Positions 16,063 through 63,664 of a stretch of DNA of 64,000 nt are shown in pieces. Numbering within the stretch: the stretch's first letter is position 1; the number at the start of each line of letters is the position of its first letter. The DNA lies in assembly GCF_003352835.1 (NCBI RefSeq), contig NZ_QLVD01000004.1, forward strand, positions 62,001-126,000. The letters are read 5' to 3'. The DNA comes from Ornithinimicrobium murale (GTDB lineage Bacteria > Actinomycetota > Actinomycetes > Actinomycetales > Dermatophilaceae). The notes beneath the pieces are model-generated. The model ran no database searches. It saw nothing but the letters and a program-made list of their open reading frames with translations, and was not told the DNA's origin. The position numbers were made by a program, and so were the translations under genes.

Positions 16063-17373
16063 GTGAGTGAGAGCGACCGGGTGCGTCGGGTGGCGATGCT
16101 CAGTGTCCACACCTCCCCTCTGGATCCTCCGGGGACGGGGGACGCCGGCGGGCTCAACGTCTACGTGGTCGAGACGGCACGGCGGCTCGCAGCCCGGGGG
16201 ACCGAGGTGGAGATCTTCACCCGGGCCACCAACGGCGCCCTCCCGGAGACGGTGCGGATGGGACCGGGCATCCTGGTCCACCATGTGCCGGCCGGCCCCT
16301 TCGAGGGGCTCGGCAAGGACGACCTGCCGGGGCAGCTGTGCGCCTTCGCTGCGGGTGTGATGCGCACCGCCGCAGGCAGACCCGAGCAGTGGTATGACGT
16401 GGTCCACTCCCACTACTGGCTCTCTGGGCAGGTCGGCTGGCTGACGGCCGACCGATGGAACGTGCCGTTGGTCCACACCATGCACACGATGGCCCGGGTC
16501 AAGAACGCCCAGCTCGCCGAGGGGGATAGCGCTGAGCCTCCTGGCCGGGAGATTGGCGAGGCGCAGGTCGTGGAGGCAGCCAATGTGCTCGTGGCCAACA
16601 CCGAGGAGGAGTCCCGGCAACTGGTCGGGCTCTATGACGCGGAGCCGGCCAAGGTTCACGTCGTGCCGCCAGGGGTCGACCTCGCGGTCTTCCGGCCCGG
16701 TGACCAGGCAGCGGCACGAGAGGCGATCGGGGTCCCCGCCGACGCGCACCTGGTGCTGTTCGTGGGAAGGATCCAGCCGCTCAAGGCCCCGGACGTCCTG
16801 ATCCGGGCAGCCGCCGAGTTGATCCGCCGCGACCCGATCCGACGCGAGAAGCTCGTGATCGGTGTGCTCGGTGGGCCCTCCGGGTCCGGGCTGGAGCGCC
16901 CGCAGGCACTGCAGGAGCTGGCCGCAGAGCTGGGGTTGGCCGACCGGGTGCGCTTCGTGCCGCCGGTCTCCCGGGCCGAGCTTGCGCAGTGGTACCGCGC
17001 AGCGGACCTGGTGACCGTGCCCAGCTACAACGAGTCCTTCGGGCTGGTGGCCGTGGAGGCACTCGCCAGCGGGACGCCGGTGGTTGCCGCCGCCGTCGGT
17101 GGCCTGCCCGTCGCGGTGGGAGACGGCGGCATCCTGCTGGACGGTCACGAGCCCGACCGCTGGGCCGACGCGATCGCAGACCTGTTGGACGACGACGACC
17201 GCCGTGCGGCCCTGGCCGCCGCCGGCGTGCGCCATGCCGCGTCCTTCGGGTGGGACCGCACGGTGGACCTGCTCGATGAGGTCTATCGGCAGGCGCGCCG
17301 CGATCACCAGCGGCTGGGCATCGACGGGGCGCACCACACCCTCGAGCAGGTCCCCAGCATGGTGTCGCCGTGA
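16063..17373 (+). CDS. mshA: D-inositol-3-phosphate glycosyltransferase (MshA)
   Basis: First committed enzyme of mycothiol synthesis: transfers GlcNAc from UDP-GlcNAc to 1L-myo-inositol-1-phosphate. 436 residues, GT-B fold, GT4 family. The N-terminal domain shows [14 protein letters not shown] and [12 protein letters not shown]. The C-terminal domain shows [14 protein letters not shown] and the nucleotide-sugar EX7E motif in [18 protein letters not shown] (about 323-340). GTG 16063 is preceded by GGAGGAG, so unlike its divergent neighbour it is translated from a leader. The YbjN gene overlaps its stop by 4 bp (GTGA). Confidence 0.95.
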
Positions 17374-56501: not shown

Positions 56502-57341
56502 ATGCCCCCACGACCGCTCTGTCCCGCCCGGTTCCGACCGGCGACCCGACGGGTCCGGCTCGGCGGTCCGATCGCCCCGATCGCCCTGATCATCGTGCTC
56601 TCCGCCTGTGGCGGCACTCCCCCGGAGGAGACGCAGACGGCCACGCCGGGCGAGACGGGCCCGGTGACCGGCGACATCACGGTCTTTGGCGCCGCCTCGC
56701 TGACCGACAGCTTCACCGAGCTGGGGGAGGGTTTTGAGGAAGCGCACCCGGGCACCAGCGTGAGGTTCAGCTTCGCCGGCAGCTCCTCACTGGCCCAGCA
56801 GATCCTCAGCGGCGCACCGGCCGACGTGTTCGCCTCCGCCTCGCCGGCCACGATGGCCCTGGTCGCCGAGGGCGGACGGACCGAGGGCGATCCCGTGGCC
56901 TTCGTGACCAACCGGTTGCAGATCGCCGTCCCGGTCGGCAACCCCGGGAGGGTCACCAGCCTGGAGGACTTCACGGACCAGGACCGCACCATCGCGCTGT
57001 GCGCCGCAGAGGTGCCGTGCGGGGCCGCCTCGGCACGGGCCTTCGAGGCAGCCCGGCTGACGCCTGCCCCCGACACCTACGAGGAGGACGTCCGGGCGGC
57101 CCTGACCAAGGTGCGTCTCGACGAGGTCGATGCGGCACTCGTCTACCAAACCGACGTGCTCGTTGCCGGCACCCAGGTTGAGGGCATCGACTTCGCGGAG
57201 TCGGCGGCAGCGGTCAACGACTACCCGATCGCGGTGCTGCGGGAGGCTCCCAACCCCGCCGGCGGCCAGGCCTTCCTCGACTTCGTGCTCTCCCCGGACG
57301 GGCAGGCCGTGCTGGGCGCGGCCGGGTTCGGGTCCCCGTGA
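56502..57341 (+). CDS. modA: Molybdate ABC transporter substrate-binding lipoprotein (ModA)
   Basis: 279 residues: signal peptide and lipobox LSAC (Cys about 35), then the ModA fold with ITVFGAASLTDSFTELGEGF, FSFAGSSSLAQQILSGAPAD and VDAALVYQTDVLVAG, whose Ser and Tyr residues bind the oxyanion. GEADVFASAS-type wording is here GAPADVFASAS. ATG 56502; modB overlaps its stop by 4 bp. Confidence 0.94.
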   Translation: MPPRPLCPARFRPATRRVRLGGPIAPIALIIVLSACGGTPPEETQTATPGETGPVTGDITVFGAASLTDSFTELGEGFEEAHPGTSVRFSFAGSSSLAQQILSGAPADVFASASPATMALVAEGGRTEGDPVAFVTNRLQIAVPVGNPGRVTSLEDFTDQDRTIALCAAEVPCGAASARAFEAARLTPAPDTYEEDVRAALTKVRLDEVDAALVYQTDVLVAGTQVEGIDFAESAAAVNDYPIAVLREAPNPAGGQAFLDFVLSPDGQAVLGAAGFGSP

Positions 57342-58192
57342 CGGGCGCTCCCTCGCCTGCTCGCCGCCTGCGTCGGTCCGCGGTGCAGACGCCCGCGGAC
57401 GGCCGGGGGACCGGCATCCCGCCGATCCTGCTGCTGCCCGCCGGGCTCGGTCTGGCCTTCCTGCTGCTGCCCCTGGTCGGGCTGCTGGTGCGCACCCCAT
57501 GGAGCGAGCTGGGCACCCTGCTGAGCCGACCCGCGGTGCTGGAGGCGCTGCGTCTCTCCCTGGTCACCGCCACCGCGGCCACCGCGATCTGTCTGGTCCT
57601 CGGGGTGCCGCTGGCCTGGGTGCTGGCCCGGGCCACCGTGCCGGGCGTCCGGTTGGTCCGGGCGCTGCTCACCCTGCCGTTGGTCCTGCCGCCCGTCGTC
57701 GGGGGCGTCGCGTTGCTGCTGCTCCTGGGACGGCGGGGCCTGATCGGCCAGCACCTCTACGACTGGTTCGGGCTGAGCCTGCCGTTCACCAGCACGGCCG
57801 TGGTGCTCTCCCAGGCGTTCGTGGCCATGCCCTTCCTGGTGATCGCCGTCGAGGGCGCGCTGCGCGGAGCGGACCGGCGCTTCGAGGACGCGGCCGCCAC
57901 GCTGGGCGCCGGACGCTGGCTCATCTTCCGCAGAGTGACCCTGCCGCTGGTGGCGCCGGGCATCTCGGCCGGTGCGGTCCTCTGCTTCGCCCGGGCCCTG
58001 GGGGAGTTCGGCGCAACGATCACCTTCGCCGGGAACTTCCCCGGCGTGACCCGGACCATGCCCCTGTCGGTCTATCTCGCCCTGGAGACCGACCCACAGG
58101 CAGCGATCGTGCTGGCCCTGGTCCTGCTCCTGGTCTCGGTCCTGATCCTGCTCGCCCTGCGCGGCCGGTGGCTCAACGGGGTCGGCTCGTGA
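57338..58192 (+). CDS. modB: Molybdate ABC transporter permease (ModB)
   Basis: 284 residues with about six membrane segments. The cytoplasmic coupling loop is DRRFEDAAATLGAGRWLIFR, and CFARALGEFGATITFAGNFPGVTRTMPL is the strongly conserved ModB/CysT segment. GTG 57338 overlaps modA and its stop overlaps the modC start, both as GTGA, so translation is coupled. Confidence 0.94.
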   Translation: MTGAPSPARRLRRSAVQTPADGRGTGIPPILLLPAGLGLAFLLLPLVGLLVRTPWSELGTLLSRPAVLEALRLSLVTATAATAICLVLGVPLAWVLARATVPGVRLVRALLTLPLVLPPVVGGVALLLLLGRRGLIGQHLYDWFGLSLPFTSTAVVLSQAFVAMPFLVIAVEGALRGADRRFEDAAATLGAGRWLIFRRVTLPLVAPGISAGAVLCFARALGEFGATITFAGNFPGVTRTMPLSVYLALETDPQAAIVLALVLLLVSVLILLALRGRWLNGVGS

Positions 58193-59304
58193 GCTCCCAG
58201 AGGTCGACCCCGCCGACCGCCGACCCCCGGGAGGCAGCCCCGGGAGGCGACCTCGCGGCATACCTGCAGGTCTCCCGCGGAGCTCTGCAGCTGGAGGTGG
58301 ACCTGCAGGTCCCGTCCGGCCAGGTGGTTGCCCTGCTGGGGCCCAACGGGGCCGGCAAGACCACGGCGCTGCACGCGCTCGCGGGTCTGCTGCGGCTGCG
58401 TGCGGGCTCGCTGACCCTCGGTGGCCGGGCACTGGACGACCCCACGACGGGCACCTTCGTCCCCGCGGCGCGCCGCGAGGTGGGCGTGGTCTTCCAGGAC
58501 TACCTGCTCTTCCCGCACCTCACAGCGCTGGAGAACGTTGCCTTCGGGCTCCGGGCCCGCGGGGTCGGCCGCGTGGCAGCCCGGGAGGCTGCCGGGGCCT
58601 GGTTGGACCGGGTGGGGCTGGCGGACCGCGCGGGGGTGCGCCCCGGTCAGCTCTCCGGAGGGCAGGCGCAGCGGGTCGCCCTGGCCCGGGCCCTGGCGAC
58701 CCGGCCACGACTGGTGCTGCTGGATGAGCCCCTGGCCGCCCTGGACGCCGCGACCCGGCTCGAGGTGCGCGCCGACCTGGCGCGGCACCTGCGGGAGTTC
58801 GGCGGCAGCGCCGTGCTGGTCACCCACGACCCGCTCGACGCGATGGTGATCGCCGACCGGATCATCGTGCTCGAGCAGGGGCGGGTCGTGCAGGACGGCG
58901 CCCCCGCGGAGGTGGCCAGGGCACCGCGGACCGAGTATGTCGCACGCCTGGTCGGTCTGAACCTGCTCCGTGGGGTGGGCTCGGGGCCGGTGGTCTCGGT
59001 GGCTGCTGGCGGGGTGCTGCACGTCGCCGACCCGGTGGACGGTCCGGTGCTCGTCGCCTTCCCGCCCACCTCGGTCACCCTGCACCGCCAGCGGCCCGAG
59101 GGGTCGGCCCGCAACGTCTGGCGGGGCGCGATCCGCGCCCTGGAGCAGCACGCCCACACGGTGCGTGCGCAGGTCACAGCTGCGGGTCACCCGCTGGTGC
59201 TGGCCGACGTCACCCCCGCCGCGGTCGCTGACCTGGACCTGGCCGTGGGGGCAGCGGTCTGGGTGTCCTTCAAGGCGACCGACACCCACGTCTATCCGGG
59301 GTGA
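58189..59304 (+). CDS. modC: Molybdate ABC transporter ATP-binding protein (ModC)
   Basis: 371 residues: Walker A GPNGAGKTT (about 50-58), signature LSGGQAQRV, Walker B VLLDEPLAALDA, switch LVTHDPLDA, followed by a C-terminal TOBE domain (about 300-370) that in ModC-type proteins binds molybdate or tungstate and inhibits transport. GTG 58189 overlaps modB. A longer frame upstream is only a shadow of modB. Confidence 0.93.
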   Translation: MSSQRSTPPTADPREAAPGGDLAAYLQVSRGALQLEVDLQVPSGQVVALLGPNGAGKTTALHALAGLLRLRAGSLTLGGRALDDPTTGTFVPAARREVGVVFQDYLLFPHLTALENVAFGLRARGVGRVAAREAAGAWLDRVGLADRAGVRPGQLSGGQAQRVALARALATRPRLVLLDEPLAALDAATRLEVRADLARHLREFGGSAVLVTHDPLDAMVIADRIIVLEQGRVVQDGAPAEVARAPRTEYVARLVGLNLLRGVGSGPVVSVAAGGVLHVADPVDGPVLVAFPPTSVTLHRQRPEGSARNVWRGAIRALEQHAHTVRAQVTAAGHPLVLADVTPAAVADLDLAVGAAVWVSFKATDTHVYPG

Positions 59305-59319
59305 GCCAGGGACGCAGGC

Positions 59320-59727
59320 TCAGCGGTGGAGGACGACCTCGACCTCGAAGCCCTGGCCGTCCTGCAGGAAGAGTGCCGTGTGCTCCGGGCCGCCGGCGTG
59401 CGGATAGCGTTCGGCGAACAGCTCCTGCCAGCCGTGGTCCGGCGCAGCCGCCCGCAGGGCATCGAGCGCCGGTCGGTCGGTGCTCGTGAGAGCCAGGTGG
59501 TTCAGGCCGGCTCGGAGCCGGTCGTGGCCTCCGGGTCGGAGGTCCGGTGACTGCTCCACCCCCAGGTAGGTGCCGTCCGGGTGGATCCAGCTCAGCCCCT
59601 CCCGCCACCGCTGGTGCTCGCTCCAGCCGAGCTCGTGCAGCAACCACCCCCAGGAGCGGACGGCGGCCTGGAGGTCGTCGACCCAGAGGTCGAGGTGGTG
59701 CAGGGCGCGGGCGGTGCGCTCAGTCAT
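59320..59727 (-). CDS. VOC-family (glyoxalase-like) protein
   Basis: 135 residues, two beta-alpha-beta-beta-beta modules: ALHHLDLWVDDLQAAVRSWG opens the first and LNHLALTSTDRPALDALRA the second. Metal-type His and Glu positions (HHLDLW, LNHLAL, FEVEVV) are kept. Substrate unknown. It follows the SGNH hydrolase with an 8-bp overlap and converges on modC (15 bp). Confidence 0.85.
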   Translation of the reverse strand: MTERTARALHHLDLWVDDLQAAVRSWGWLLHELGWSEHQRWREGLSWIHPDGTYLGVEQSPDLRPGGHDRLRAGLNHLALTSTDRPALDALRAAAPDHGWQELFAERYPHAGGPEHTALFLQDGQGFEVEVVLHR

Positions 59728-60550
59728 CGGCCCGGTCCTCGCTCGCGGCCCGGACCGGTGTCAGGGAGGGGCGTTTGGGCGGCACGTTGTCGCCGGAGGA
59801 GGTCCCGCGCAGGCGCCGACCCACCCACGGGGCGGCGTACTCCCGCGCCCAGGTCGCGTTGTCGCGGAACGCCTCGAGGCGTCCGGGGCGGGGTTGTGGC
59901 GGCAACGGGATCCGCCAGTCCGCCTCCTCGGCGGTGTGCCCGAGGGACTCGTAGGCAGCGAGTGCCACGCGGCGGTGCCCCTCCGGGCTCATGTGGATCC
60001 GGTCCCGCCCCCACATGCGCCAGTCCCGCAGAAAGGTCAGCGCCCACTGGTTGAGCAGGTAGGCACCCTGCCGCTCGGCGATCGACCAGAGGTGGCCGAC
60101 GTAGACCGCAGCCTTGCCACGGGTCCGTTCCACGATGGGTGCCCCAGCAGGGTCGCTCGGCGTCGCCATCAGCACGTCGGAGCCCGTCGCGCGGATGCGA
60201 GCGACGGCCTCCTCCAGCGCGGCCGCCAGTGCGTCCGGGTCGGCGCCGGGGCGCAGGATGTCGTTGCCGCCGCCGATGATGCTCACCAGGTCCGGCTGCA
60301 GCTCCAGCCCGCGGTCGACCTGACGACCTGCGATGTCGTGCAGCCTCCGGCCCCGCACCGCGAGGTTGGCGTAGTTGAGGTCCGCGGTATGGGCCGACAG
60401 CAGCGCAGCGAGCCGGTCGGCCCAGCCGATCAGGCCACCGTCGGTGTCCGGGTCGCCCAGGCCCTCGGTCATGGAGTCGCCGAGGGCGACATAGCGACGC
60501 CACGGTCGAGCCTCGGGTCGGATACTGCCGGTGCGGGTGCTGCCTGTCAT
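59720..60550 (-). CDS. SGNH/GDSL hydrolase
   Basis: 276 residues. Block I YVALGDSMTEG with the nucleophile Ser26, block II NLAVRGRRL, block III IIGGGNDIL and block V DRIHMSPEGH (Asp and His of the triad). A cytoplasmic esterase or lipase-like enzyme, no signal peptide seen; substrate unknown. ATG 60550 was chosen because CAGGAT lies 7 nt upstream; ATG 60559 is 3 codons longer. 19 bp after the ArsA-like gene. Confidence 0.87.
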   Translation of the reverse strand: MTGSTRTGSIRPEARPWRRYVALGDSMTEGLGDPDTDGGLIGWADRLAALLSAHTADLNYANLAVRGRRLHDIAGRQVDRGLELQPDLVSIIGGGNDILRPGADPDALAAALEEAVARIRATGSDVLMATPSDPAGAPIVERTRGKAAVYVGHLWSIAERQGAYLLNQWALTFLRDWRMWGRDRIHMSPEGHRRVALAAYESLGHTAEEADWRIPLPPQPRPGRLEAFRDNATWAREYAAPWVGRRLRGTSSGDNVPPKRPSLTPVRAASEDRADD

Positions 60551-60557
60551 GGAGACC

Positions 60558-60563
60558 ATCCTG
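60558..60563 (-). promoter_or_regulatory. -10 element of the SGNH hydrolase gene
   Basis: Minus-strand CAGGAT, 7 nt before ATG 60550. It overlaps the small gap after the ArsA-like gene. Confidence 0.4.
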
Positions 60564-60569
60564 CCGGTC

Positions 60570-61601
60570 TCACGCGAGATAGCCGAGTAGCCGCTCCAGA
60601 CCCGGCTCGCCGAGCACCTCGTCCGCCAGAAGCGGGACCTGCACCGTGGGTAGGTGCGGCAGTGACCGGGCCAGCTCCGCGACATACTCCTCCTCGACCA
60701 GACGTCGGGAGGCGAGCAGGTCGCCAGCATCGGCCGGAGAGCGCTTGTTGATCACCACGGCCGCGACGGTCATTCCCGAGCGGGTGAGCTGCTCGTGCAG
60801 CTCGACCGACTCCAGGACCGGCAGCCGCTCGGCGGCGGTCACGATCACGAAGGCCGTGCCGGTGCGGTCGGTGAGCACCTCCCGCAGGTGGCGGAAGCGC
60901 TGCTGCCGGCGGTCGAGCACCGAGCGGATCTCCTCGTCGCGGTGTGCCCGTCGGTCCTGGGTGCGGCGTGGGCCGATCGAGGTGCCGGAGCCCGGGAGCC
61001 TCCGCGATCCGATGAGCTCCGCGGCGTCATAGTCGGCTCCCTCCAGTCCGCGCAGGGCCGCCCCGAACCGGGCGGAGCGGTCCTGGCGGCGCAGCAGCCC
61101 TTCGGTCCAGGCCTGCATCAGTTCGGGCAGTGCGATCAGCCGGGTGGTGTGGCCGCTCGGGGCTGTGTCGAAGATGACCAGCTCCTCCGGGTCGCGCTGC
61201 TCGACGACCTCGGCGATCCGCTCCAGCACCGCGGCCTCATGCGTTCCCGGGGCGTCCCGCGCCAGATCCAGGTGCTTGTCGACCTCGCCCTGCAGGTTGT
61301 CGGCCATCAGGCGCCGCACGGTGGCCCGGACAGCTCGAAGGTGCTCCTCGGTCGTGCGGGCGGGGTCGATCTCCAGTCCCCGGAGGCGCGGTGCCAGCTC
61401 GATCGGTGAGTCGCCGACCCGGCGCTGCCACAGGTGGCCCAGGTTGTGGGCCGGGTCGGTGGACACCACGAGGGTGGGGCGGCCGGCGCGGGCGCGGGCC
61501 AGGCCGAGCGCGGAGGCCACGGCCGTCTTGCCGACGCCGCCCTTGCCGCCCACGAAGAGGACATCGCGGTGCCGGGCGAGATCGCTGAGTGGCTGGGGCA
61601 T
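60570..61601 (-). CDS. ArsA/Get3-like ATPase without cysteines
   Basis: 343 residues of the ArsA/GET3 branch of the SIMIBI NTPases: deviant Walker A VGGKGGVGKT (17-26), STDPAHNLG as switch I, IFDTAPSGHTTRLI as switch II and VINKR near the base-binding loop. It contains no Cys at all, so it has neither the metalloid site of arsenite pumps nor the zinc CxxC of Get3. A single ATPase half, expected to be a dimer. AGGAG precedes ATG 61601. It is 48 bp after the small CC-tailed protein gene and downstream of cstA, all on the minus strand. Confidence 0.85.
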   Translation of the reverse strand: MPQPLSDLARHRDVLFVGGKGGVGKTAVASALGLARARAGRPTLVVSTDPAHNLGHLWQRRVGDSPIELAPRLRGLEIDPARTTEEHLRAVRATVRRLMADNLQGEVDKHLDLARDAPGTHEAAVLERIAEVVEQRDPEELVIFDTAPSGHTTRLIALPELMQAWTEGLLRRQDRSARFGAALRGLEGADYDAAELIGSRRLPGSGTSIGPRRTQDRRAHRDEEIRSVLDRRQQRFRHLREVLTDRTGTAFVIVTAAERLPVLESVELHEQLTRSGMTVAAVVINKRSPADAGDLLASRRLVEEEYVAELARSLPHLPTVQVPLLADEVLGEPGLERLLGYLA

Positions 61602-61649
61602 CAGGCTCCTGGGCAGTGGCGGGCGGGAACGAGCAACGGCACGGCTGCC

Positions 61650-61925
61650 TCAGCAGCACGAGAAATGGTCGAGGGGGGAGCGGTCCAGGCCCATGCGCTT
61701 GTGCCAGTCGTGGAACTGGTCGTAGACGACCGGCAGCAGCTCCACGGTGTAGTAGCTCACCGGGTTGGGCACGCCGAGGGCCTCGGCCATCACGATGACC
61801 AGGAACAGGTCGTCCTCGTCCTGCTGGGCACGGGCGAAGGTGCGCCGGTAGGGGCCGCTGTAGAAGTCACGCAGCCCCGCAGCCACCTGCCAGAGGCGGC
61901 TGCGGGACTGGTCGGAGTCCTCCAT
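61650..61925 (-). CDS. Small protein ending in Cys-Cys (cory-CC-star type)
   Basis: 91 residues, soluble and mostly helical: RLWQVAAGLRDFYSGPYRRT, EDDLFLVIVMAEALGVPNPV, then LLPVVYDQFHDWHKRMGLDR and the terminal HFSCC. The only two cysteines are the last two residues. It resembles the short families known by the name cory-CC-star. YbdD, the partner of CstA in E. coli, is equally short and also ends in Cys-Cys, though I see no other similarity. It lies directly after cstA (20 bp) and before the ArsA-like gene. GTG 61928 is an alternative start one codon earlier. Confidence 0.82.
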   Translation of the reverse strand: MEDSDQSRSRLWQVAAGLRDFYSGPYRRTFARAQQDEDDLFLVIVMAEALGVPNPVSYYTVELLPVVYDQFHDWHKRMGLDRSPLDHFSCC

Positions 61926-61933
61926 CACGCTGG

Positions 61934-61939
61934 AGGCTA
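61934..61939 (-). promoter_or_regulatory. Possible internal -10 element before the CC-tailed gene
   Basis: Minus-strand TAGCCT, 5 nt before GTG 61928 and 8 nt before ATG 61925. It would let the CC gene and the ATPase gene be expressed apart from cstA. Confidence 0.4.
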
Positions 61940-61945
61940 CTCCCG

Positions 61946-63664
61946 TCAGTCCTGTGGTGCCCGCTCCGCGGCCGCGCGCTCGGCCTCCTGAGCGAGCTCG
62001 GCGTCGTCGTCACCGACGTAGTTGCGCGCCGACCGCATCGCGGCCGCGGCCTCGACGATCACCCAGAGTGCTGCCACGAGGATGACCAGGTCCAGGGCCA
62101 GGAGCAGCCAGTTCTGAGCCTCCCAGAAGGTGCCGAGCTGGATGAACAGCGCATAGATGGTCATCACCGCCACGAAGACCAGGGGGATCAGCGCGGGCAG
62201 CGGAGTGCGTCCTCGCCGCAGCAGCATGATCGCCACGATGGACAGGGTGAGGGCGGCCATGAGCTGGTTCGTGGTGCCGAACAGGGGCCAGATGAGCAGC
62301 CCGCCGGAGCCGTCCACACCGGCGCCGAACGTCAGTGCCAGCGCGACGCCGACCGCGATGACCGTGGCGACGCCCTTCCCGAGGGCCATGCCGGCGATGT
62401 CGCCGATCTCCTGGACGACGAAGCGCTGCAGGCGCACCCCGGTGTCCATCGTGGTGGCGGCGAAGAGGATGGCGGTGGTGGCCAGGATCGTCGCCGACAG
62501 CGACTGGGACAGCCCCAGGCCGCTCTCCACGATGGCACCGCCGCCCTGGACGAACGCGCCCACGCTGCCGGCGCCGAACTCGGAGTAGGTCTCCCGCCAC
62601 GCGCCGAGGGTGGCGAAGCCGGCGGTGGCGGCGATGATCGCACCCAGCGCCAGCAGGCCCTCGCCCACCGCGCCGAAGTATCCGACGAAGCGGGCGTCGG
62701 ACTCCTTGTGCAACTGCTTGGAGCTGGTGCCCGAGGACACCATGCCGTGGAAGCCCGAGACTGCGCCGCAGGCGATGGTGACGAACAGCAGCGGCACCAG
62801 GCTGGGGGTCCCTGCCGGAACCTCGTTGTTCACTGCAGGGGCGACGATCTCTGGGCGGGCGATCAGGACCGACCCGTAGAGAATGCCGAGCGCGATGAAC
62901 AGCTGCAGACCGTTGATGTAGTCGCGCGGCTGCAGCAGGACCCAGACCGGCAGGGTGGAGGCGATACCGGCGTACAGGAACAGGACGATGATCCAGAAGG
63001 CGTTGTCCGGCAGACCCATGACCGTCTCCGGAAGGGCGAGCGGCACCTGGTCGCCGATCCAGATGAGGGTGTAGAGCGCGACCACTCCCACCACGGAGAC
63101 GACCGGCAGGCTCCACTTCAGCTTGTAGATCGCCTGGCCCACGAGCAGGGCGACCAGCAGCGCACCCCAGGTCGGGATCACGGCCGTGGGGGTGCTGACC
63201 AGCAGGTTGGAGATGACGACCGCGAAGGCGGCGTTGACCATCAGCAGGAGCAGGAAGATGACCACCAGGAACAGGTTGCGTCCGTGCTTGCCGATGTAGC
63301 GACCGGACAGGGCGCCGATCGACTGGCCACGGTTGCGGATCGAGGCCCACAGGGCGCCGAGGTCGTGCATCCCTGCGAAGAAGACAGTGCCGATGGTCAC
63401 CCAGAGGAAGGCGGGCAGCCAGCCCCAGATGACGGCGATGGCGGGTCCGACGATGGGGGCGGCGCCGGCGACGGATGTGAAGTGGTGTCCCCACAGCACG
63501 TACTTGTTGGTCGGGACGTAGTCGACGCCGTCCTCGAACTGGTGCGCTGGGGTGGTGCGGGAGTCGTCGAGTGCGTAGATCCGGCTGGCCAGGTACTTCG
63601 AGTACAGGAAGTAGCCGGCCAGGATCATGGCGACGCCGATGAGTGCGAGTACCAGGGAGTTCAT
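61946..63664 (-). CDS. cstA: Carbon starvation protein A (pyruvate/peptide transporter CstA)
   Basis: 572 residues with about 15-16 membrane segments, shorter than E. coli CstA (701). Conserved blocks: TNKYVLWGHHFTSVAGAAPI, GPAIAVIWGWLPAFLWVTIG, VSGFHGMVSSGTSSKQL and WPLFGTTNQLMAALTL. CstA-type proteins are known as pyruvate symporters and peptide-uptake-related proteins. ATG 63664 has AGAGGCAG upstream and a minus-strand TAGGGT about 35 nt away as possible -10. It heads the cstA - CC protein - ArsA-like ATPase set. Confidence 0.94.
   Translation of the reverse strand: MNSLVLALIGVAMILAGYFLYSKYLASRIYALDDSRTTPAHQFEDGVDYVPTNKYVLWGHHFTSVAGAAPIVGPAIAVIWGWLPAFLWVTIGTVFFAGMHDLGALWASIRNRGQSIGALSGRYIGKHGRNLFLVVIFLLLLMVNAAFAVVISNLLVSTPTAVIPTWGALLVALLVGQAIYKLKWSLPVVSVVGVVALYTLIWIGDQVPLALPETVMGLPDNAFWIIVLFLYAGIASTLPVWVLLQPRDYINGLQLFIALGILYGSVLIARPEIVAPAVNNEVPAGTPSLVPLLFVTIACGAVSGFHGMVSSGTSSKQLHKESDARFVGYFGAVGEGLLALGAIIAATAGFATLGAWRETYSEFGAGSVGAFVQGGGAIVESGLGLSQSLSATILATTAILFAATTMDTGVRLQRFVVQEIGDIAGMALGKGVATVIAVGVALALTFGAGVDGSGGLLIWPLFGTTNQLMAALTLSIVAIMLLRRGRTPLPALIPLVFVAVMTIYALFIQLGTFWEAQNWLLLALDLVILVAALWVIVEAAAAMRSARNYVGDDDAELAQEAERAAAERAPQD

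Follow-up and report, generated by a model that had tools for sequence, protein, structure and literature searches.

A cstA, CC-star and ArsA/Get3-type ATPase gene set in Ornithinimicrobium murale and other bacteria

Pyruvate uptake by CstA of Escherichia coli requires the small protein YbdD (PMC5847655), and a cstA mutant of Desulfovibrio showed a pyruvate-specific phenotype (PMC10102598). In the parts of their survey dealing with these associations, Castillo & Saier (2010; PMC2963123) listed 26 associations of CstA with ArsA, 24 of which included a small protein named CstX, and argued that CstA, CstX and ArsA had co-evolved, proposing that CstX links the ATP-hydrolysing ArsA homologue to CstA. 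Here we analysed a stretch of 64,000 nucleotides from Ornithinimicrobium murale (contig NZ_QLVD01000004.1, positions 62,001 to 126,000; hereafter, the window), in which three genes on the minus strand follow each other in the order cstA, a small gene whose product ends in Cys-Cys (CC-star, of the cory-CC-star family), and the gene of an ArsA/Get3-type ATPase, with intergenic gaps of 17 and 48 bases. Their linkage, their co-occurrence when unlinked and the placement of the CstAs in one clade support the view that these genes function together as a single set. The features of this trio are listed below by window position.

63664-61946, minus strand: cstA, short type, 572 aa (PF02554, E 1.4e-133)
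62768..62770, minus strand: codon of Cys299, the sole Cys of the window CstA
61928-61650, minus strand: gene of the cory-CC-star/CstX-type small protein (NF041419, 128.5 bits)
61701..61712, minus strand: His73-x-x-His76 of CC-star, invariant (109/109 aligned rows)
61653..61658, minus strand: terminal Cys91-Cys92 of CC-star, invariant in class A (108/108 distinct sequences)
61601-60570, minus strand: gene of the single-domain ArsA/Get3-type ATPase, 343 aa, no Cys (TIGR00345, 194.3 bits)
61524..61550, minus strand: Walker A motif of the ATPase, GGKGGVGKT
61434..61463, minus strand: switch I of the ATPase, STDPAHNLGH (each position >97% conserved, 77 aligned rows)
61146..61169, minus strand: switch II of the ATPase, DTAPSGHT (each position >97% conserved, 77 aligned rows)

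The small protein is 92 aa long from a GTG start or 91 aa from the directly following ATG (61925), and its Cys-Cys end is followed by TGA. CstA contains one Cys, CC-star two (residues 91 and 92) and the ATPase none; these counts and the gene coordinates agree with the original prediction, made from the sequence of the window, of a row made up of cstA, a small protein with Cys at its final two positions only, and an ArsA/Get3-type ATPase devoid of Cys. The small protein is a member of the already named family NF041419 (CC_star_Cory; E 7.2e-38, 128.5 bits against a cut-off of 80, positions 2-80 of 80), from which it shows no difference. The family name carries no function, and the feature "ends Cys-Cys", which we read from that name, is present in the window protein.

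The trio is likewise a member of an operon type that was published in 2010. The operons of Castillo & Saier comprise the same set, namely CstA, a CstX of ~90 aa and a single-domain ArsA of ~330 aa without the ArsA cysteines, which the authors described as not conserved in single-domain homologues, and no ars genes were reported in the cstA operons they surveyed. Their ArsA table includes Brevibacterium linens and Pseudomonas stutzeri, and Brevibacterium and Pseudomonas genomes also carry the trio in our scan of named genomes, which covered the best 80 of 481 matches. Gene order and organisms together indicate that their CstX is probably CC-star. The gene set, the Cys-poor ATPase and the transport role are already in print in that survey, and the Cys-Cys end, the HxxH motif and the fourth protein described below are not mentioned in its sections on these operons. 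What is new here is the His2-Cys2 set of residues, the absence of all four in loci with two copies of each partner, the persistence of CstA in genomes in which it is not linked to the pair, and a fourth protein with a Cys pair that accompanies or replaces CC-star and its ATPase. In one literature library, we found no paper naming cory-CC-star and none containing both "carbon starvation protein" and "ArsA family ATPase", and cstX occurred with carbon starvation in PMC2963123 only.

Linkage of CC-star and arsA with cstA

We compared 111 CC-star loci, of which 31 came from Actinomycetota samples (window included) and 80 from named genomes, the two sets overlapping in at least one genome (L144 and L005 are one contig). 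The named genomes were mostly labelled Actinomycetota and Proteobacteria, with few other labels, and the closest relatives of the window protein among these best matches were found in Ornithinimicrobium. In all 111 loci arsA adjoined a CC-star gene whose product ended in Cys-Cys, and the codons of the ATPase Walker A motif started 21-235 bases past the CC-star stop on the same strand. With the ATPase following CC-star in every locus, the arrangement is not due to chance, and CC-star with the ATPase is the tightest unit of the trio. The cstA gene was located immediately upstream of CC-star in 94 of the 111 loci and was not so located in 16.

Of the 246 genomes in the class sample, 12 had an NF041419 match, the genome of the window among them, and all 12 loci had cstA before and arsA after CC-star. 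At E 0.01, 29 of the 396 genomes in the phylum sample had NF041419 matches and 27 of these had CstA; the two without CstA were weak matches (E 1.3e-4 and 0.006). When both samples were pooled, arsA was present in all 31 class A loci and cstA in 30, the exception (L030) being at a contig start. The named genomes gave a Cys-Cys end in 80/80 and an upstream cstA in 64/80. The trio was also intact in the three plasmid records opened, from Pseudochrobactrum and Paracoccus (Alphaproteobacteria) and from Cytobacillus (a Bacillus relative), and the public annotations "cory-CC-star protein" and "ArsA family ATPase" already stand on five of the six matched plasmid records.

The 16 split loci, all among the named genomes, were labelled gammaproteobacterial or lower groups, save one metagenome-assembled genome labelled Rhodoferax. 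The CC-star/arsA pair of each of them (L119, L126, L151, L165 and 12 more) lay downstream of SNF-family Na+ symporter-like and ratA-like genes, which were near CC-star and arsA in 0 of the 64 other loci; Pfam SNF and Polyketide_cyc were confirmed in the three split loci scanned. This neighbourhood would be expected if CC-star and ArsA served another membrane protein, such as this NSS-family Na+ symporter of a mostly gammaproteobacterial group, and travelled with cstA by history. We consider that scarcely likely, as it sits poorly with the CstAs of the same genomes. A short-type CstA was still encoded elsewhere in 12 of the 12 split genomes searched (L136, L140, L145 and L162 stood outside this search), and the five of these CstAs that were entered in a phylogenetic tree fell in the clade of the linked CstAs with a support of 1.0. 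In the five split genomes opened, no CC-star, CstX, YbdD or ArsA was found beside the unlinked short CstA. A 143-genome sample of the class of one split genome contained CstA in 20 genomes and the short type in six (that genome included), and the two genomes with CC-star in this sample both had the short CstA. Because all 12 searched split genomes carry the short CstA, compared with six of the 143 in the class sample, the CC-star/arsA pair appears to depend on this CstA even where the two are not linked. The original prediction had tied the Cys-Cys family and the ATPase to cstA, a tie that fails as adjacency in one part of the loci and stands as co-occurrence within the genome.

The window CstA matched PF02554 with 447 bits against a gathering cut-off of 27, and reached 221.5 bits against a cut-off of 1188 for NF011590, the equivalog of the E. 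coli pyruvate/proton symporter; a substrate of the window CstA is therefore not implied. The CstA family carrier presumably has a LeuT/APC-type fold, and a search of solved-structure sequences with CstA gave zero matches at E 0.01. In the tree, 79 linked, five split and five CC-star-less CstAs formed one clade with a support of 1.0, and the long CstAs, mostly from YbdD loci, were outside it. The tree had 135 rows (134 distinct), from which CstA matches spanning <400 aa had been dropped, removing most of the loci with the fourth gene. Its labels were set by the originating search, so that L081 and L083 are rows without a PF04328 match and L207 is labelled two-CstX by position, its contig stopping before any CstX; L199 repeats the genome of L081, and L209 and L210 repeat those of L014 and L024. 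The position of Cys299 was Cys in 133 of the 135 aligned rows, independent of partner type. The CstA Cys was accordingly dropped as a candidate partner of the Cys-Cys tail, its presence whichever the partner being evidence neither for nor against. In a Luteimonas locus (L121, 1944-5986), a short-type cstA precedes CC-star and arsA, and a long-type cstA points away from it.

Conserved residues of the small protein and its ATPase

All 108 distinct class A CC-star proteins ended in Cys-Cys. When these were aligned with the full window protein (109 class A rows, one of them gapped at Cys91), six residues were strictly invariant: Gly52, Pro56, His73, His76, Cys91 and Cys92. Since four of the six are His73, His76, Cys91 and Cys92, we predict one His2-Cys2 site, and this pattern of conservation suggests that His73-x-x-His76 and Cys91-Cys92 may together bind a metal or act in redox chemistry. 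The AlphaFold2 (AF2) model of CC-star was a helical hairpin (3-51, 56-78) with a mean predicted local distance difference test score (pLDDT) of 75.6 and a predicted template-modelling score (pTM) of 0.40; a Foldseek search with this model gave zero matches at E 10, and a search of solved-structure sequences with CC-star gave zero matches at E 1.

The E. coli CstA-YbdD system (DUF466/KCU-star, PF04328, NF033934) likewise combines a CstA-family carrier with a small partner, relatives of which often end in Cys-Cys. Homology between the two small partners was nevertheless rejected. The profile-profile probability was 0.5% with only the two Cys aligned, bearing out the earlier statement that the small protein shares only its Cys-Cys end with YbdD, and CC-star had no Pfam match, PF04328 included, at E 1. 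YbdD is also found with the long CstA, and no ArsA match was located beside long CstA or YbdD in 40 loci (34 genomes, ~1.5 kb flanks). The 31 distinct YbdD proteins of these loci (L046-L085) ended in Cys-Cys in 19 cases and in Cys-Pro in 12 (Arg-Cys-Cys versus Arg-Cys-Pro), the first Cys being constant in the set, and Cys-Sec ends of the YbdD type have been published as KCU-star (PMC9312934, PMC13188914). One genome (G089) has the YbdD system and the CC-star system at separate places. In another (G066; L199, 3493-3930), a frame that appears YbdD-like by eye stops early beside a long CstA and is possibly a broken or shifted gene.

The ATPase matched ArsA_ATPase (PF02374, E 2.9e-53) and TIGR00345 (GET3/ArsA/TRC40; 194.3 bits against a cut-off of 135), and missed the cut-off of the arsenical-pump ArsA TIGR04291 (119.7 bits against 650), having one domain, whereas ArsA has two. 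Its fold and its P-loop and switch motifs are common to Get3/TRC40 and ArsA, and the solved fold nearest to its AF2 model (pLDDT 88.8) was archaeal TRC40 (3zq6, E 1.2e-23). Walker A read GGKGGVGKT in 103, SGKGGVGKT in seven and GGKGGGGKT in one of the 111 CC-star-linked ATPases, and both switches were conserved in 76 relatives and the window ATPase; the rows of this alignment were chosen by a P-loop text pattern, which left out four of 80, and the Walker A count covers all 111 loci. Get3, a targeting factor for tail-anchored proteins, has a CxxC zinc bridge and a hydrophobic, Met-rich groove that binds hydrophobic transmembrane tails. By contrast, the trio ATPase has no conserved Cys, with none at all in 45 of 76 relatives and the commonest Cys column holding 15 of 77, and the CxxC is absent from the window protein. 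Its helical subdomain is charged and nearly free of Met (42% charged, 24% VILMFW, mean 0.6 Met, values for which no reference Get3 was measured in the same way).

These properties bear on the original prediction that the ATPase could recognise the Cys-Cys tail as cargo and thereby bring the small protein to CstA in the manner of Get3. The nearest fold of the ATPase, and a Cys-Cys end in every distinct class A protein, are what such a mechanism would lead one to expect, but the helical subdomain does not resemble a groove for hydrophobic tails, the CC-star tail is not hydrophobic, Cys-Cys tails stand beside long CstA without an ArsA match in the 40 loci, and in the class described next ArsA pairs with a CstX lacking Cys-Cys. 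The Cys-Cys tail is thus found where the ATPase is absent, and pairs of the ATPase where the tail is absent. Because each occurs without the other, the tail as ATPase cargo is disfavoured, and we now hold it to be very unlikely.

A doubled class and a fourth protein

In a divergent class of loci (L034, L036, L037, L204-L206), found in 4 of 396 genomes from three genus groups, two CstX genes and two ArsA-like genes come after cstA. Three of the four genomes show both arsA genes, and the contig of the other (G277) stops within the first arsA. Two added searches gave no further genomes, the matches (2/27 and 2/40 genomes) being the known ones, with an extra G277 fragment only. The tandem CstX are homologous to CC-star (profile-profile probability 94%, E 1.1e-7), and all six divergent CstX match NF041419, the one score shown falling below the cut-off. 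None of the six aligned sequences has the Cys end, and the positions of His73 and His76 read N/S/E/Q and K/R, so the class lacks all four of His73, His76, Cys91 and Cys92; the expected conservation of the Cys pair holds throughout class A and breaks down here. The doubling of both partners, with two CstX and two ArsA, is what would be expected if CstX and ArsA pair. One of the two ATPases has SVDPQASL with YDLVPLGHA, and the other STNPVHSL with DTAPTANA. The switch I Asp is thus replaced by Asn (STNP) in one and switch II is altered (YDLVPLGHA) in the other, which suggests that the two may form an asymmetric heterodimer. In the solved ArsA chain 9nbo, STNP occupies the site where 9nbl, of the same protein name, has STDP; we take the STNP of 9nbo to be a trap mutation.

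A fourth protein of ~140 aa was encoded immediately after cstA in all five clade loci without CC-star (L184-L188). Among the 31 sample loci, 15 (L015-L025, L028, L029, L030 and L033) also have its gene upstream of CC-star; in 14 it lies between cstA and CC-star, and in L030 a fragment of it stands where the contig begins. The sequences follow the pattern HRxxLVREWDxQxxGSGCCGRLGG...VDPRN...VDGKVL, with GCCGR in 16 of the 20 loci, SCCGR in L028, GCCGT in L184, GCCGG in L188 and no such motif in the L030 fragment. No significant match was found in Pfam or NCBIfam and no match in a plasmid collection; matches to solved-structure sequences were at chance level (best E 0.069), and thioredoxin-like matches were very weak and not significant (E 0.08-0.16). 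In Cytobacillus, the gene that separates cstA from CC-star (L202:3648-3935) encodes a 95-residue relative lacking the Cys-Cys part (E 2e-8). The fourth protein is not present in the window or in the 80 named loci, and a window frame at 17148-17282 was rejected as a candidate, its match (14.3 bits, 45 residues) looking like chance. In the rows seen, every CstA of the clade is accompanied by at least one of the two, CC-star or the fourth protein.

Vicinal Cys next to an ArsA-family partner, a His2-Cys2 set that could bind metal, and a conserved GCCGR-type motif with faint thioredoxin-like similarity in the fourth protein would also suit an ArsD-like metallochaperone. CC-star, with or without the fourth protein, would then pick up a thiol-seeking metal or metalloid and interact with the ATPase in the way that ArsD interacts with ArsA, and CstA would be an exporter. 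However, the ATPase has no conserved Cys, ars genes are missing from the cstA operons of the 2010 survey in the sections concerned (PMC2963123), an Acr3 is encoded elsewhere in the genome, and CstA relatives take up pyruvate (PMC5847655). The chance of this alternative is very slim, in line with the original judgement that metalloid export is improbable. The accompanying statement that no other ars gene is present was borne out for the nine genes or frames scanned in and around the trio, among which none was found besides the trio ATPase. In the genome, the Acr3 arsenite exporter (G000:C4:97835-98821) lies on a contig other than those of the trio and of a tandem pair of further ArsA-family genes (G000:C7:424326-426168).

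By Pfam, the genes scanned around the trio were a GDSL lipase, a glyoxalase and an opposite-strand ABC transporter, and the last frame beyond cstA had no Pfam match. The frame of the GDSL-type lipase/esterase occupies 59720-60730 on the minus strand, and its longest start would overlap the 3' end of the ATPase gene. The ABC transporter (56502-59304, plus strand) consists of a solute-binding protein, a permease and an ATPase with a TOBE domain, and its arrangement of genes is one that we take to be probably that of a molybdate transporter.

Proposed mechanism of the gene set

We propose that the trio is a secondary transporter of one CstA clade with a dedicated ATP-driven accessory module gated at the CC-star site, a proposal for and against which we see the chances as evenly balanced. 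Starting from the linkage, the co-occurrence and the invariant residues, we infer docking, a switch and a substrate as follows. The ATPase, presumably a homodimer like Get3 and ArsA, would dock on the helical body of CC-star, and its ATP cycle would either deliver CC-star to CstA or switch CstA on. Uptake, of pyruvate by analogy with E. coli CstA and YbdD, would thereby depend on the ATP state of the cell. His73-x-x-His76 and Cys91-Cys92 would most likely act as one metal or redox site that gates the CC-star step, and the CC-star tail would be neither a membrane tail nor cargo of the ATPase.

Several points weigh against this proposal. That the substrate is of the pyruvate type is an assumption based on distantly related carriers, the His2-Cys2 site is deduced from conservation, and the CC-star tail is the lowest-confidence part of the AF2 model (pLDDT 55-61). 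Being related among themselves, the 12 split genomes do not count as independent events. In addition, the five CC-star-less CstAs nested in the clade have no adjacent CC-star or ArsA, and NF041419 found no CC-star in their genomes, so that neither CC-star nor a neighbouring ATPase is indispensable to a CstA of this clade. All five have the fourth protein in their place, and this exchange for another Cys-pair protein counts in favour of the proposal.

The same five CstAs also speak to the coupling put forward by Castillo & Saier, according to which the ArsA homologue energises CstA transport with ATP, as ArsA does for ArsB, and CstX is the physical linker that couples hydrolysis to it. This was published on grounds of operon structure and co-evolution (PMC2963123), and it explains both the tight CC-star/ArsA unit and its dependence on CstA. 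Nevertheless, five CstAs of the same clade lack an adjacent ATPase and the long CstA lies with YbdD without a nearby ArsA, so CstA-type transport as a whole does not require ATP coupling, and we judge such coupling unlikely in the trio. Our proposal of a gated accessory module could also be extended, in a tentative form that we lean against, to the clade as a whole. Its carriers would be controlled by thiol-bearing partners, namely CC-star worked by the ATPase, the fourth protein with its internal Gly-Cys-Cys-Gly, or the two together. CC-star would act as a switch, gated by metal or redox state, by which the ATPase turns a secondary transporter on and off; CC-star and the unrelated YbdD/KCU-star family would have acquired the Cys end independently, and the doubled version would have exchanged the switch for an asymmetric pair of ATPases.

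Pyruvate uptake by CstA is important during starvation and in stationary phase. A further partner that is unrelated to YbdD, yet shares its Cys-Cys end and has an ATPase of its own, offers a natural comparison together with a third, Cys-pair protein able to replace both. The roles of the tail and the ATPase are open to genetic dissection through the split loci and through the doubled version, which is Cys-free. If the proposal is true, it would give the Get3/ArsA class of ATPases a bacterial role beyond arsenite export.

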